Positions 10,695-17,074 of a stretch of 47,960 nt of DNA are shown piece after piece. The stretch is from positions 1 through 47,960 of the forward strand of contig JAUIFY010000011.1 in NCBI GenBank assembly GCA_030430245.1, written 5' to 3'. Position numbers and translations under genes: made by a program. Under the pieces are notes generated by a model. That model searched no databases. It saw only the letters and a list, made by a program, of their open reading frames with translations, and was not told the DNA's origin. Position 1 is the first letter of the stretch; each line of letters opens with the position of its first letter. The stretch comes from a bacterium (lineage in GTDB: Bacteria; Desulfobacterota; Binatia; UBA12015).

Positions 10695-12086
10695 TCAGAC
10701 GGTCTGCGGAAAGCCGTTCCGACGCAGATGGGCGATCGTCGCGTCGCGCAACGGGGCGCCCCAGGTCGCGTCGCCGACGTTCGACAAGCCGAACGACTCG
10801 GCATCGCCCACGACGTAGCCGATCGTCGCCACGCGGTACGTCGTGCGATCGTTCAGCCGGTCCTGACGGCGAAGCGCCTCACGCGCCCCACCGGCGACGT
10901 CCGCGCCGCGGACGTCGACCACCGCGATCTGCTCGCGCCAGCTCTCGAGGTCGTAGATGTCGCCGGTTCGGATGGTGCCCGCACGAAGTCGATCGGCCAC
11001 CGACGCCACCGGGTAGAAGGCGAGATCGACGTCGTCTCCGGCTCGCATCACGGTCTCGAAGAACCGGGCGACGTCGACCCCCTCGAGCCGCCGCGGGTTG
11101 GTGCCCAACGCGTCGCCCACGCTGAGGGGTGCCTCGGCGTCCCTCGCGACGTTCACGAACGCGTGCAGGTGGGGCTCTCCCCGGTAGTGAAAGACCGTGC
11201 CCGGGCCTTCGAGTCGAATCACCTGCGACGGTGACTCGCCAGCCAGGCGGCCACCCTGATAGTCCTGCTCGTAGTCGGCCAGATGGAGCGCGTCGATGCC
11301 GCCGTTGTGCTCGATGCAGCTCCACGCGTAGCCGGCATCGTCCTCCCCGTACGTCTCGAGGATCGAGTCGACGAAGGAGCGTACGCGCGCGCGCCGGGAC
11401 GCGGACAGAGCGCGGACCGGCAGGCCGTCGAACCGCCCCTCCCTGCCTTGAACGCCGATCTGGGTCTGTGGAGGGGCGACCGGTCGCCGCACCATCTGGC
11501 GCTCGCCCGCACTCAGGCCGCGCAGGATCTCCTGTCCACGTTCCAGCTGAAAGCGGTAGACGTTGTCCGGCAGGCCGACCTCGCCGTCTCCCCGTTGGTC
11601 ACCGTAGACCTGGGGGCCACCGAAGGCCACGCCCTCGCGACTGCGCCCACCGATCCGGAGGTTCACGTGCGGTCCGGTGACGAGCACCTGGTAGTCGTCG
11701 TCCGGATGCCCTACGAACAGGGTTCGGGTCGCGTGGATCCCGCCCAGACGGAGCAGCTGCTGGTTCGGAAGCCGTTCGCGGCCCGCCGGGGACAACGACG
11801 CGTAGACGAGATCCGTGAGAGTGGACCGCGTGCGGTACGGCAGGAGGACCGACCAGACCCCGCCCGTGTCGACACCGCGATTGTGGAACTGCCGCAGCGG
11901 GTGGTCGTACGGCACGACCGCATCCTCCCAGCCCGCGCGCAGCTCGTCGTAGAGCCGCCGCGCGAGATCGGGCACCGGCGCGAGGTCCGCGCTCGGCCGC
12001 GGTGTGACGAGCGCACGTGCGGCGAGACCGGCTCCGGCGGCCACGCCGATTCCGGCGCCCCATTTGATGATTTGGCGTCGACGCAT
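10695..12086 (-). CDS. DUF3500-like protein, Tat-exported
   Basis: 463 residues. The N-terminus MRRRQIIKW followed by a Gly/Ala-rich hydrophobic segment is a good twin-arginine signal. The body fits DUF3500: an early LSPAGRERL helix, a GPHVNLRIGG block in place of the usual GHHLSLN, then GQEILRGLSAGERQ and a C-terminal dimer-like segment. DUF3500 members are secreted or periplasmic and functionally uncharacterised. The last 110 residues (for example TIRTGDIYDLESWREQ..VVDVRGADV) resemble the C-terminal domain of 5'-nucleotidases, which suggests a two-domain fusion; this part is less certain. It is divergent from the DUF2490 gene at 12211, with a 124-base spacer. It stands alone on this strand; the next - genes lie beyond 12959. 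Confidence 0.65.
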   Translation of the reverse strand: MRRRQIIKWGAGIGVAAGAGLAARALVTPRPSADLAPVPDLARRLYDELRAGWEDAVVPYDHPLRQFHNRGVDTGGVWSVLLPYRTRSTLTDLVYASLSPAGRERLPNQQLLRLGGIHATRTLFVGHPDDDYQVLVTGPHVNLRIGGRSREGVAFGGPQVYGDQRGDGEVGLPDNVYRFQLERGQEILRGLSAGERQMVRRPVAPPQTQIGVQGREGRFDGLPVRALSASRRARVRSFVDSILETYGEDDAGYAWSCIEHNGGIDALHLADYEQDYQGGRLAGESPSQVIRLEGPGTVFHYRGEPHLHAFVNVARDAEAPLSVGDALGTNPRRLEGVDVARFFETVMRAGDDVDLAFYPVASVADRLRAGTIRTGDIYDLESWREQIAVVDVRGADVAGGAREALRRQDRLNDRTTYRVATIGYVVGDAESFGLSNVGDATWGAPLRDATIAHLRRNGFPQTV

Positions 12087-12958: not shown

Positions 12959-13816
12959 TCAGCCCTCGACGAAGCGGACGACGGCCCTTCCGTCGTCGAC
13001 CAGCACGACCGGCGCCCGCTCCAGACGACAGCGGGCACCCGAGACGCACTCTCCGCTCCGCAGGTCGAACCGGTAGCCGTGCCAGGGACAGAGGAGCTCC
13101 GCGCCGTCGATCGACGCGTCCAGAAGCGAGCCGAGCCGATGCGGGCAACGCCCGGGATGGACGAGAAGCTGCCCCTCCGCCTCGACGAGCCGCCACGAGC
13201 GGCCGAACGCCTCGAAGCCGAACGGGACCTTGGCGCGGATCTCCGACACCCCACCGAGCACGACGTCGGTCGTCGCGATCCGCTCCCGGGCGGACTGCTC
13301 GTCGAGTGCGGCCTGCCGGTCGAGCATCATGCGAACGTCTTCGTCGTACAGGCGAGAGTACAAGGCCCGAAGCTTCTCCCCCGCGGCGGCGGCCTTCCTC
13401 CCGGAGACGCCTGGCGCGAAGAAGTCGACCACGACCAGCGTCTCGCGCTCGCCCCGCTCGGAGACGTGGGTCCAGATCTCCGAGCCCTCGCCCTGCCCGG
13501 CCAGCGTCGTGGTGATCCACCGCCGATGCTCGCGCTCGAGACGAAGCCGGATCTTGAGGACGCTCCCACCGGTCGATCCCGCCAGCGCGGTCCAGCCGTT
13601 TCCATCGGCCTGGGTCTTCTCGATGCTCGAGAAGCTCGACGCGTGCAGCCACGGCAGATGCTCCCAGTCGAGCGCGTTCTCGAACAGGCGCTCCACACTC
13701 ACCGGGAGCACCTGCCGAAGCGTCCCGAGGTGGCTCAGCGCCGCGGAGCCCTCGGCGGGGCCGGTGAAGGCGCGGTCGAACTCGGTGCCGATCGGGTCGC
13801 TCATCTCGATCGACAT
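12959..13816 (-). CDS. Rieske oxygenase-like protein with permuted domains (catalytic part first, Rieske last)
   Basis: 285 residues. A [2Fe-2S] Rieske motif is at the C-terminus: C224-x-H226 (CPHRLG) and C243-x2-H246 (CPWHGY). Residues 20-190 look like the helix-grip catalytic domain of Rieske non-heme oxygenases. They contain E46-x3-D50-x2-H53-x4-H58 (ENALDWEHLPWLH), the standard bridging-Asp plus two-His motif. A later YDEDVRMMLDRQ block (residues 157-168) resembles the C-terminal segment that supplies the carboxylate ligand, with D160 the candidate. Canonical alpha subunits have the Rieske domain first, so the order here is reversed and the protein is short. No reductase gene lies nearby. 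It follows the papain-like/diheme gene on the same strand after 62 bases. The substrate is unknown. The fold assignment of the N-terminal part is inferred from motifs. Confidence 0.8.
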   Translation of the reverse strand: MSIEMSDPIGTEFDRAFTGPAEGSAALSHLGTLRQVLPVSVERLFENALDWEHLPWLHASSFSSIEKTQADGNGWTALAGSTGGSVLKIRLRLEREHRRWITTTLAGQGEGSEIWTHVSERGERETLVVVDFFAPGVSGRKAAAAGEKLRALYSRLYDEDVRMMLDRQAALDEQSARERIATTDVVLGGVSEIRAKVPFGFEAFGRSWRLVEAEGQLLVHPGRCPHRLGSLLDASIDGAELLCPWHGYRFDLRSGECVSGARCRLERAPVVLVDDGRAVVRFVEG

Positions 13817-13878: not shown

Positions 13879-16800
13879 TCAGGGACAGGTTTCTCCGTCC
13901 TCGTAGTGCGCGGCCCACACGCTGAAAGCCTGCGCGTACGTGTCGGCGTGCGGCGCCGGCGTGCGGCCGTTCAGGTTCCCCGTCGCACTCACCGGATCGA
14001 AGGTCCAGACGACGAGATGGTCCTGCACGACGTGGGCGGCGATGGCTTGGAGACTGCGGTTGCCGTTGGTCGCCGGATTGGCGATCGCCGCGATGATCTG
14101 GTCGGGCGTCTTGTCCGTCCACTGCATGCCCGGGTCGGACGGCTGATGCCAGATCGGCTCTCCTTCCCCCGGCCAGGGAGCGATCGCCGCCGCGTCGTTG
14201 TGACACCAAGAGCAGGTCGTACCTTCGTTCAGGTCGTGTGGAGTCATGTCGTCGGTCTGGGTCACCTCGGTGATCGACGCGTGGCAGTTCCGACAACGCG
14301 GCGAGTCGACGACGTCTCGAATGACGTCGCAGGCCTGCGCGAAGCTCATGTCGACGGGTTCCGGCGTGTCGATGCCGCCAGGCAGATTCAGGGTGCCGAA
14401 GTAGAAGACTCCCTCGTGCTGCATCGGCCGATTGAAGAAGTGCGGGAACCGACTGCACTCGAGCTCTCCGCCGATCGTGGTGCACGCCTCCACGTACCAG
14501 TGCACGGTACTTCCGAGCTCGGGCGGGATGGGATCGCCTTCGGGCACGGGGAAGCGGAGAGTCTGCACGCCACCCTGCACGCCCGCGGCGATCCCCTCGG
14601 TCATGTAGTGCTTGAAGTGACCGTCGTCCCACGGCGGCTCGGGCGCGGGGAGCGGCGACGGCCCCACCGTGATCCGGTACGTCTCGACCTCGTCGTCATA
14701 GACGGGCGAGCCGTTCGAGAAGTCCTTGACCACGCGATACCACTCGAAATTGGGAGTCCGATTCTGCGCCGTGGTGCCGGGCTCGGGCGAGAGCAGCCTC
14801 GCGTTCGGAAGGGTGAACTTGATCCGCTTGTTTCCGTTCGACCACGCGCACCCACCGGTCGTACACGCGAGGACCGTCCAGTAGTAGCGTTCCCCGCGGT
14901 ACGGCTCCTCGTACGCGAACGAGTCGATCATGAACTTCTTCTCGGCGGCGTTCGCCGGCGGCACCGGGAACTGCGCGTAGCAACCCTCGCCCCCCGAAAC
15001 GGAGGTACGCAGGCAGATCTCGTACGTGGTCGTCGCCGGGTTCGCGTCGGTCCAACGCAGGGCCGAGTAACGCGGGTAGACCGGGATGTCGTCGGCGGTC
15101 GGGCTGAGGAGGGGAGCGGTCGCAGGCTGCTGCGCGCTGTTGAACGCCAACGAGACGACGTCGCTCTGCCCGTACGCTTGGAGGCCCGTGATCGCCGTCA
15201 TCGAGATGGCATGGTCGGCCATCCAGCTCTTCGGGACGTACCAGTACCCACCGTCGCCCACGCACGGCCCCCAGGAGTTCTTCACCACGAAATAGCCTCC
15301 ACCCGCACCGGCCGGCGTGCCCTTCGCGAGATCCGAGTTGGCGCCCCAACCTTCGACCATCGCGGCGTGCCAGCCGAGAAGGGGATCTCCGCCCTTGCGG
15401 GCCTGCTTCTTGGTGATCGGCTTCACCCAGCCGTCGTCCGCCGCGTCGAGGAAGCTCTGCGTGACCTGGAAGGAAGCGACGACTGGCAGGCCGAGGGCCA
15501 GAAAAACCGGCGCGACGTCGACCGTCTGCCCCGGATTCGTCACGTCGAAGAACGAGTTGTACGCGAGCACCTTGATCTCGTCCCTGGCGGCCGGGATCTG
15601 GGCGCTGTAGCCGCACTGCTTCGTCCCCTTGGCGCACAGGTACTGCCCCTGGTGGTTCGTGTCCGAGCACGGCTTGTCGGAGTAGCCCTCGCACGAGTCC
15701 GCGTACGTGTGGTAGACGCGATTGCCGGCGGCCTCGTGAGTGCGCTCGGTCCGCTCCGGCGAGAGATTGTAGCTCCACGCGCGCTCCTCGCGGAACTCGT
15801 AGTCGCCCACCATCATCCCGAGGACCGATCCCGGCGAATTCAGATCGTCGCCGAAGTTCGGCGGAACCGGGAACCAGTGGTTCTTCTGCGCGTAGTGGAG
15901 GTGCTGCTCCGAGAGATCCGGGCACGTGTCGTGCTCGCGGCGCACCGCTGCCTCCACGGCAGCGCTGATCGCGAACGCCACGCCGGTGCCACGCGTCCCC
16001 CCCTGATCCTTGACGCACGTCCCCTTGCCCTTGAGCGGCCAGTCGGCGGTCGCCCACAGACCCTCGTCGGACCGCTCGAAGCACGCCTGTGCCCGCGCGC
16101 CGCCCGTGAGCATCCCGGGCGTCACGAGCTTCTCGCAGTTGGCCGAGCAGTCCCGCTTGCCTTCGATCGGTCGGAGGCTCGTGGGCGGATCCTTCGTCCA
16201 ACGCTTCACGATGTCGCGCAGCAACTTCGTCGGGTCCTTCTTCCCGAGCGCACCCGGCTCGGGCATGCCTTTCAGGATCGCGCCGAGGCTCGCCGGATCC
16301 TTCGCGAGGGCCGCCGAAACCCCCTCGTAGATCACGGCGTAGTTCAGCGCGGCGTTGTTCGTCGCCCCGATCTCGGCGAGCGTCTCCGATAGGTCGCGGG
16401 TGGCGAAGCTCGAGCCGAGCAGCACGACCGGGACCTGACGACCGTCGCGTGTCGCGACGCTCGTCACGTAGTTTCCGGCCATCGTCCGGCGCAGCCGCTT
16501 GCCGTCCGCCCGCGGCACCGCCGTGTACCGCTCGACGAGCCCGCTCTTGCCGCCGAGCTGTTCGACGAGCACGGCCCCCAGGGCCTCGTCCAGAGCCCGG
16601 CTCTCCTTCTCGCCCTCGACGTCCATCTCTACGCTGCTCCGCGTGAGCTGGCCCGCCTTCTCGAGCGACTGGAACGACTTCTTCGTGACGTCGACGGCCT
16701 TCGGCACCGGCAGCGGTTGGGGCTTCTGGGCGGCCCCCGTCTTCTTCCGATCCTGCTCCCACTTCGCCCGGCCCGTCTCCAGAGACTCGGCCGACTTGCC

Positions 16801-16941
16801 CGCGGCCGACGTTCCGTCGGCCGCGGTCTTCGAGCGTGCATCGGCCGCGCCTCCGTCGGCCGGGACGAAGAGCCCTCCGAGGAGCAAGAGTGCCATCAGC
16901 CCGAGGGAAACCGTCGCTCGCGGTCCAGCTTGCTTCGTCAT
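13879..16941 (-). CDS. Secreted papain-fold (C1A) pseudopeptidase fused to a diheme CxxCH domain
   Basis: 1020 residues from the ATG at 16941, which has GGAGG eight bases upstream and starts a signal peptide; 25 upstream residues in frame are not protein-like. Residues 30-300 form a charged pro-region-like part. Residues about 305-620 are papain-like: VKDQGG (310-315), a C-terminal His block (GWHAAM, H525) and KNSWG (N555). The nucleophile region reads GTRGTGVAFA, so the papain Cys is replaced by Gly/Thr, and I rechecked this on the DNA. Residues about 640-860 look like fibronectin-type or other beta modules (YPRYSALRWTDANP..YEICL). The last 150 residues carry two c-type heme sites, C883-RN-C886-H887 and C910-SW-C913-H914, plus His-rich surroundings. 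It is probably periplasmic or surface exposed and proteolytically inactive. Function is unknown. Confidence 0.8.
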   Translation of the reverse strand: MTKQAGPRATVSLGLMALLLLGGLFVPADGGAADARSKTAADGTSAAGKSAESLETGRAKWEQDRKKTGAAQKPQPLPVPKAVDVTKKSFQSLEKAGQLTRSSVEMDVEGEKESRALDEALGAVLVEQLGGKSGLVERYTAVPRADGKRLRRTMAGNYVTSVATRDGRQVPVVLLGSSFATRDLSETLAEIGATNNAALNYAVIYEGVSAALAKDPASLGAILKGMPEPGALGKKDPTKLLRDIVKRWTKDPPTSLRPIEGKRDCSANCEKLVTPGMLTGGARAQACFERSDEGLWATADWPLKGKGTCVKDQGGTRGTGVAFAISAAVEAAVRREHDTCPDLSEQHLHYAQKNHWFPVPPNFGDDLNSPGSVLGMMVGDYEFREERAWSYNLSPERTERTHEAAGNRVYHTYADSCEGYSDKPCSDTNHQGQYLCAKGTKQCGYSAQIPAARDEIKVLAYNSFFDVTNPGQTVDVAPVFLALGLPVVASFQVTQSFLDAADDGWVKPITKKQARKGGDPLLGWHAAMVEGWGANSDLAKGTPAGAGGGYFVVKNSWGPCVGDGGYWYVPKSWMADHAISMTAITGLQAYGQSDVVSLAFNSAQQPATAPLLSPTADDIPVYPRYSALRWTDANPATTTYEICLRTSVSGGEGCYAQFPVPPANAAEKKFMIDSFAYEEPYRGERYYWTVLACTTGGCAWSNGNKRIKFTLPNARLLSPEPGTTAQNRTPNFEWYRVVKDFSNGSPVYDDEVETYRITVGPSPLPAPEPPWDDGHFKHYMTEGIAAGVQGGVQTLRFPVPEGDPIPPELGSTVHWYVEACTTIGGELECSRFPHFFNRPMQHEGVFYFGTLNLPGGIDTPEPVDMSFAQACDVIRDVVDSPRCRNCHASITEVTQTDDMTPHDLNEGTTCSWCHNDAAAIAPWPGEGEPIWHQPSDPGMQWTDKTPDQIIAAIANPATNGNRSLQAIAAHVVQDHLVVWTFDPVSATGNLNGRTPAPHADTYAQAFSVWAAHYEDGETCP

Positions 16942-17074
16942 CGATCCGCCTCCTGTCCCGGACCTCCGGGATTCGGTCCGGATTCTGCCCGGCTCCCGGG
17001 TGCCGTCCCATCGCACGATGAGGGGATGGAGAGAAATCCGTGGCGCGCCGATGTGGGTCCGTTACGACTCCGGC

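Follow-up and report, generated by a model that had tools for sequence, protein, structure and literature searches.

A predicted exported protein of a Binatia bacterium that joins a papain-like domain lacking its catalytic cysteine to a diheme c-type cytochrome

In this study we focus on a protein of 1,020 residues (the focal protein), encoded in a stretch of 47,960 nucleotides of contig JAUIFY010000011.1 (assembly GCA_030430245.1; Desulfobacterota, Binatia, UBA12015), hereafter called the window. It combines a papain-like C1A domain, from which the nucleophile has been lost, with a C-terminal diheme cytochrome. This domain architecture is new, as a new combination of two known domain kinds. 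We put slightly better than even confidence in the reading of the protein as an exported pseudopeptidase-cytochrome, in which the papain scaffold would bind or dock and the hemes would transfer electrons.

Results

Organisation of the focal protein

The focal gene lies on the minus strand at positions 13879-16941 of the window, open from an ATG at 16941 to a stop codon at 13879. This ATG was preferred over a GTG at 17016 because an AGGAGG sequence stands immediately 5' of it. Two full-length orthologs with the same parts, sharing 66-70% identity with the focal protein, were found in other genomes of the genus, one of them being the MAG 'Deltaproteobacteria bacterium isolate OFTM293'. The features of the chain are collected in Table 1.

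Table 1. Features of the focal protein and their positions in the window.
Feature	Position	Strand	Basis
Predicted Sec-type signal peptide, residues 1-33 (MTKQAGPRATVSLGLMALLLLGGLFVPADGGAA)	16843..16941	(-)	read from sequence
Low-complexity Ala/Lys/Pro linker, residues 34-80	16702..16842	(-)	ortholog comparison
N-terminal domain, residues 81-290	16072..16701	(-)	no Pfam family
Papain-like C1A domain without catalytic Cys, residues 291-595	15157..16071	(-)	Pfam PF00112, profile match
Residue 315, one-residue insertion in the catalytic loop (DQG-x-TRG), Cys-less clade only	15997..15999	(-)	column comparison
Gly320 codon (GGC), position of the nucleophile Cys	15982..15984	(-)	alignment with Cys-intact relatives and falcipain
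His525, position of the catalytic His, preceded by clade-specific Trp524	15367..15369	(-)	alignment
Asn555 of KNSWG, position of the catalytic Asn	15277..15279	(-)	alignment
Two Ig/FN3-like modules, residues 600-852	14386..15144	(-)	W/Y/C patterns, by eye
Diheme c-type cytochrome tail, residues 853-1020	13882..14385	(-)	family comparison
First CxxCH, C883-H887	14281..14295	(-)	14/14 family members
Second CxxCH, C910-H914	14200..14214	(-)	14/14 family members

The signal peptide, judged by inspection, suggests that the protein is exported. The hydrophobic N-terminus is common to both orthologs while the linker after it diverges, and together they form the least conserved part of the chain, with 30-35% identity between orthologs. 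From about residue 150 onwards, the N-terminal domain is partly common to Cys-intact secreted C1 proteins, including those of Deinococcus. The Ig/FN3-like region gave no match to a Pfam family at E<10; a similar region also lies before the diheme tail in two other open reading frames described below (L019 and L037). The chain showed neither a lipobox nor a sorting signal nor an anchor for the outer membrane, so that periplasm and cell surface appear equally possible as its location. AlphaFold models of both halves, built from alignments of 2-3 sequences, are of very low confidence (pLDDT 31-32).

A papain-like domain without nucleophile

The Peptidase_C1 profile (PF00112) scored 28.5 bits on the focal protein against a cut-off of 20.7, and 29.9 and 24.0 bits on the two orthologs. 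Moreover, a profile of the family matched falcipain, papain and cathepsin chains, the best being falcipain 2 (E 2.5e-20), and in this alignment the catalytic Cys of falcipain 2 falls on column 320. Of the features of peptidase C1A, the profile, Gln, His and Asn are present and the catalytic Cys is not: Q313 (papain Gln19, the oxyanion Gln), H525 and N555 are retained and invariant in the focal protein and its orthologs, while the nucleophile position is occupied by Gly320.

Around this position the focal protein reads TRGTGVAF, the orthologs TRGSGVAF and TRGASVAF (the latter, from genome G001, with Ser at 320), and a Cys-less paralog of about 43-45% identity (G002b) TRGTQIGF. In contrast, RG[ST]C stands here in six more distant relatives, which come from the same family, the same class and Deinococcus plasmids. 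Residue 320 is accordingly G/G/S/Q in the four Cys-less proteins and C in 6 of 6 relatives, with residue 319 being T/S/A/T in the former. Among all C1A columns, position 320 is the only one whose residue is invariant in the six Cys-intact relatives and kept by none of the four Cys-less proteins, which are also marked by the insertion at residue 315 and by the Trp before His. In a maximum-likelihood tree these four form a single clade (97/99), the other rows being weakly placed and some branches long; the Cys-intact relatives without CxxCH, at about 30-38% identity, stand outside it.

The open reading frame of the paralog (L015:13980-15887, G002:C137) runs off the end of its contig, and another at a contig edge of the same genome (L019:3-1217, G002:C296) consists of an FN3-like region and the diheme tail. 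The two may be halves of one gene; no sequence overlap joining the two contigs was found. Loss of the Cys may have preceded gain of the tail, an idea suggested by the tail-less paralog, whose reading frame is however cut off by the contig end. Full-length sequences number three; they belong to a single genus, and the assemblies that contain them are divided into many contigs.

Comparison of the C1A domain with its two orthologs gave dN 0.14-0.19 and dS 0.86-1.02, hence dN/dS of 0.14-0.22, figures that are rough with dS near 1. Identity to the orthologs is 74-77% for the C1A domain, 65-74% for the Ig/FN3-like modules, 64% for the N-terminal domain and 62-67% for the diheme tail, so that the C1A domain is the most conserved of the chain, equalling or exceeding the Ig/FN3-like modules. 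Judged by its sequence, the domain thus qualifies as a pseudopeptidase, with the nucleophile lost in one clade and the remainder under purifying selection, which argues that the dead domain is kept for something.

The diheme tail and its family

The tail is clearly the same domain as in a group of small exported proteins that carry the annotation 'Isoquinoline 1-oxidoreductase subunit'. Besides both CxxCH motifs, an alignment of 14 sequences shows W931, M939, H970, P983, P995, W1009, G1016 and C1019 to be conserved in all 14, and H902 in 13. The tail therefore has what is expected of a diheme cytochrome, two CxxCH together with conserved candidates for distal His/Met (H970, M939, H902), and is presumably loaded with heme; genes for cytochrome c maturation (PF01578) occur in 4/4 genomes of the genus. 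An identity as cytochrome c7, cytochrome c3 or an OmcA-MtrC multiheme protein was rejected, all scores, that of the weak likeness to cytochrome c7 included, being under the curated cut-offs and the CxxCH motifs numbering two where three or more are needed.

In 5/5 annotated alphaproteobacterial plasmid loci the stand-alone gene of this domain comes directly after genes for a (2Fe-2S)-binding and a molybdopterin subunit. Within the phylum of the window, four of the five loci checked (L020, L036, L046 and L049, not L045) have IorB-like coding immediately upstream and in the same orientation. This gene order suggests that the tail family serves as electron acceptor for a molybdenum hydroxylase. 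In genome G078, a stand-alone diheme gene adjoins a long open reading frame that is in part IorB-like, and IorA-like coding is near. Open reading frames of about 900 aa that are IorB-like, with IorA-like coding nearby, also occur in the genus of the window and do not adjoin the focal gene (loci for these observations: L064, L065, L067 and L020:4942-7716).

A different exported protein (L037:205-1995, G001:C78), composed of a CarboxypepD_reg-like domain and an FN3-like region, has this diheme tail at its C-terminus as well, which makes the tail a portable module in the genus.

An earlier note on this DNA had described the chain as a papain-fold domain without nucleophile, joined to a diheme cytochrome-like tail in one secreted protein. 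That description holds, on the basis of PF00112 and of the CxxCH motifs present in 14/14 family members, and the tail proves to be a genuine diheme c-type cytochrome domain. The open reading frame, H525, N555 and both CxxCH were found in the sequence and alignments where the note had put them, and its claim that the nucleophile Cys is replaced is borne out by alignment with Cys-intact relatives and falcipain, which assigns the column to Gly320. The note was right on the dead papain domain and the two CxxCH motifs, and the peptide binding and the redox role at the cell surface that it suggested may apply, with the periplasm as an equally possible location. It had overlooked both Ig/FN3-like modules and the family to which the tail belongs.

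Gene surroundings and distribution

The divergent neighbour of the focal gene, starting at about 17083, was named nitronate-monooxygenase-like by eye and has no Pfam match at E<0.001. On the other side, the focal gene is followed by a Rieske-domain gene (12962-13816). The ortholog in G002 is flanked by the same divergent neighbour and a CoA-transferase III gene, with no Rieske gene between, and a CoA-transferase gene is near the ortholog in G001. The Rieske gene was not found beside either ortholog, and no conserved operon partner was seen across the three neighbourhoods. The window contains no molybdenum hydroxylase genes, so the focal gene lacks the operon setting of the tail family; matches to MoCoBD_2 in the focal genome are all on other contigs. 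Between the CoA-transferase and Rieske genes of the window, a gene at 10698-12086 (-) has a Tat-like N-terminus (RRRQIIKWGAG) and a match to a 5'-nucleotidase C-terminal domain.

The fusion was found in three of the four genomes of the genus. In the family, 10 further genomes were searched without a match, as were the remainder of 148 genomes belonging to the class and all others of 395 sampled from the phylum; the searches covered these genome sets. A scan of genome contigs matched only two OFTM293 loci. Among ordinary C1 proteins of the class, none of the 19 Pfam-detected open reading frames has a CxxCH; the Cys site could not be assessed in two of them (L081 and L085).

Discussion

The likely task of the focal protein is to bind something and to handle electrons, not to cleave proteins. 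In the mechanism we propose, the papain-like domain, its nucleophile permanently lost, would have been kept to bind, or dock onto, a peptide, a partner protein or the cell envelope, and the Ig/FN3-like modules would act as spacers. The diheme domain is a homolog of the cytochrome that, encoded together with IorAB-type molybdenum hydroxylases, presumably accepts electrons; it would take electrons from a periplasmic partner and hand them on. That the pseudopeptidase binds and that electrons pass between the hemes and an oxidoreductase partner are inferences; the protein may instead be simply structural, with hemes of another use.

A closely related idea is a redox-coupled receptor, whose cleft would bind an extracellular or periplasmic peptide or protein, this binding gating the flow of electrons through the diheme domain. 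We consider it unlikely; if true, bacteria would have evolved, independently, a counterpart of androglobin and similar protease-like/heme chimeras. We give the same low weight to the view that the C1A domain is a structural carry-over, the chain being essentially a diheme cytochrome on a large inert scaffold whose cleft has no ligand. The diheme tail of the unrelated L037 protein is consistent with this, as the carrier may be interchangeable, and so is the free drift of the Cys position between Gly, Ser and Gln. However, a carry-over fits poorly with a C1A domain that is more conserved than the cytochrome tail and holds many clade-specific invariant residues.

Slightly less probable again is a heme or redox sensor, in which the redox state of the heme would be reported by altered binding of the pseudopeptidase. 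Such a role would suit a gene with no conserved operon partner and with no molybdenum hydroxylase or other evident electron partner adjoining, except the Rieske gene in the focal genome only, but no signalling domain or transmembrane output was seen in the chain, and the relatives of the tail resemble electron carriers.

That hydrolase or transferase activity remains through another residue is, in our opinion, very improbable. Gln313, His525 and Asn555 are all retained, and the ortholog in G001 has at 320 a Ser, as do Ser-for-Cys papain homologs such as SERA5 (PMC4671257); yet this residue is Gly in two of the Cys-less proteins and Gln in one, and since 319 varies as well, the clade has no conserved nucleophile. 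Finally, the refuting case named in the earlier note, that the missing Cys and the fused tail are assembly or sequencing errors or chance motifs, is as good as eliminated in spite of all genomes of the genus being in many contigs: in three independent genomes these parts are encoded without a break in the frame, while the residue at the site varies, and both CxxCH motifs are conserved throughout the tail family. The check proposed in that note comes out in favour of its reading, as all homologs with these parts lack the Cys (two of the full-length orthologs have Gly and the third Ser), and the Cys-intact, CxxCH-less relatives lie outside the Cys-less clade.

The closest known relatives of the C1A domain are peptidases C1A and the Cys-intact secreted 'C1 family peptidase' proteins (G020, G039, G013 and Deinococcus plasmids), which have in common with it the homologous domain, Gln/His/Asn, the DQG...RG loop, KNSWG and part of the N-terminal domain; one of these relatives (L016) also has a C-terminal Ig-like module. 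The focal clade differs from them by Gly/Ser/Gln in place of Cys, the one-residue loop insertion and the Trp before His, and the focal protein by its C-terminal diheme cytochrome. The tail shares with the stand-alone 'isoquinoline 1-oxidoreductase subunit' proteins the same domain and the pattern CxxCH...H...CxxCH...W..P....M...H...W...P...R.P.P...W..G..C. In contrast to these, it forms the C-terminal part of a pseudopeptidase of 1,020 aa encoded outside such an operon, and where the family has the Cys of an EIC motif, the three fused orthologs carry Ile. Thus a diheme cytochrome that otherwise accompanies molybdenum hydroxylases serves here as a portable tail of exported proteins.

In soybean P34 the Cys is replaced by Gly, a case that we have not used as precedent. 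Retention of a papain-like domain for a non-enzymatic role, as we propose here, has been described for Plasmodium SERA5, a papain-like pseudoprotease in which Ser takes the place of the Cys (PMC4671257, PMC5500368), and TINAG/TINAGL of humans are listed as inactive (PMC10318531). These proteins are however eukaryotic and contain no heme, and SERA5 has Ser where the focal clade also has Gly and Gln. Androglobin, like the focal protein, brings together a cysteine-protease-like and a heme domain in one chain, namely a calpain-like domain and a permuted globin in metazoans (PMC9249397). One list gives the papain-like domain of androglobin as inactive (PMC10318531), while the protein is reported to contribute to proteolysis of SEPT10 (PMC9249397). 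It differs by being calpain-like and metazoan, with a non-covalent globin heme, and the two architectures are not homologous. In the limited set of literature searched, we found no report of a papain-like domain joined to c-type heme, and the papain-family pseudopeptidases with a studied role were eukaryotic. The clade described here offers one traceable loss of the nucleophile together with Cys-intact relatives for comparison, and therefore the purpose of a dead papain domain becomes a testable question. Two other C1 proteins of the class, L070 (G122:C249) and L071 (G055:C30), carry Ser for the catalytic Cys (DSSWAFS and NNSWAFA) and appear to be separate heme-less pseudopeptidase or Ser-type lineages.
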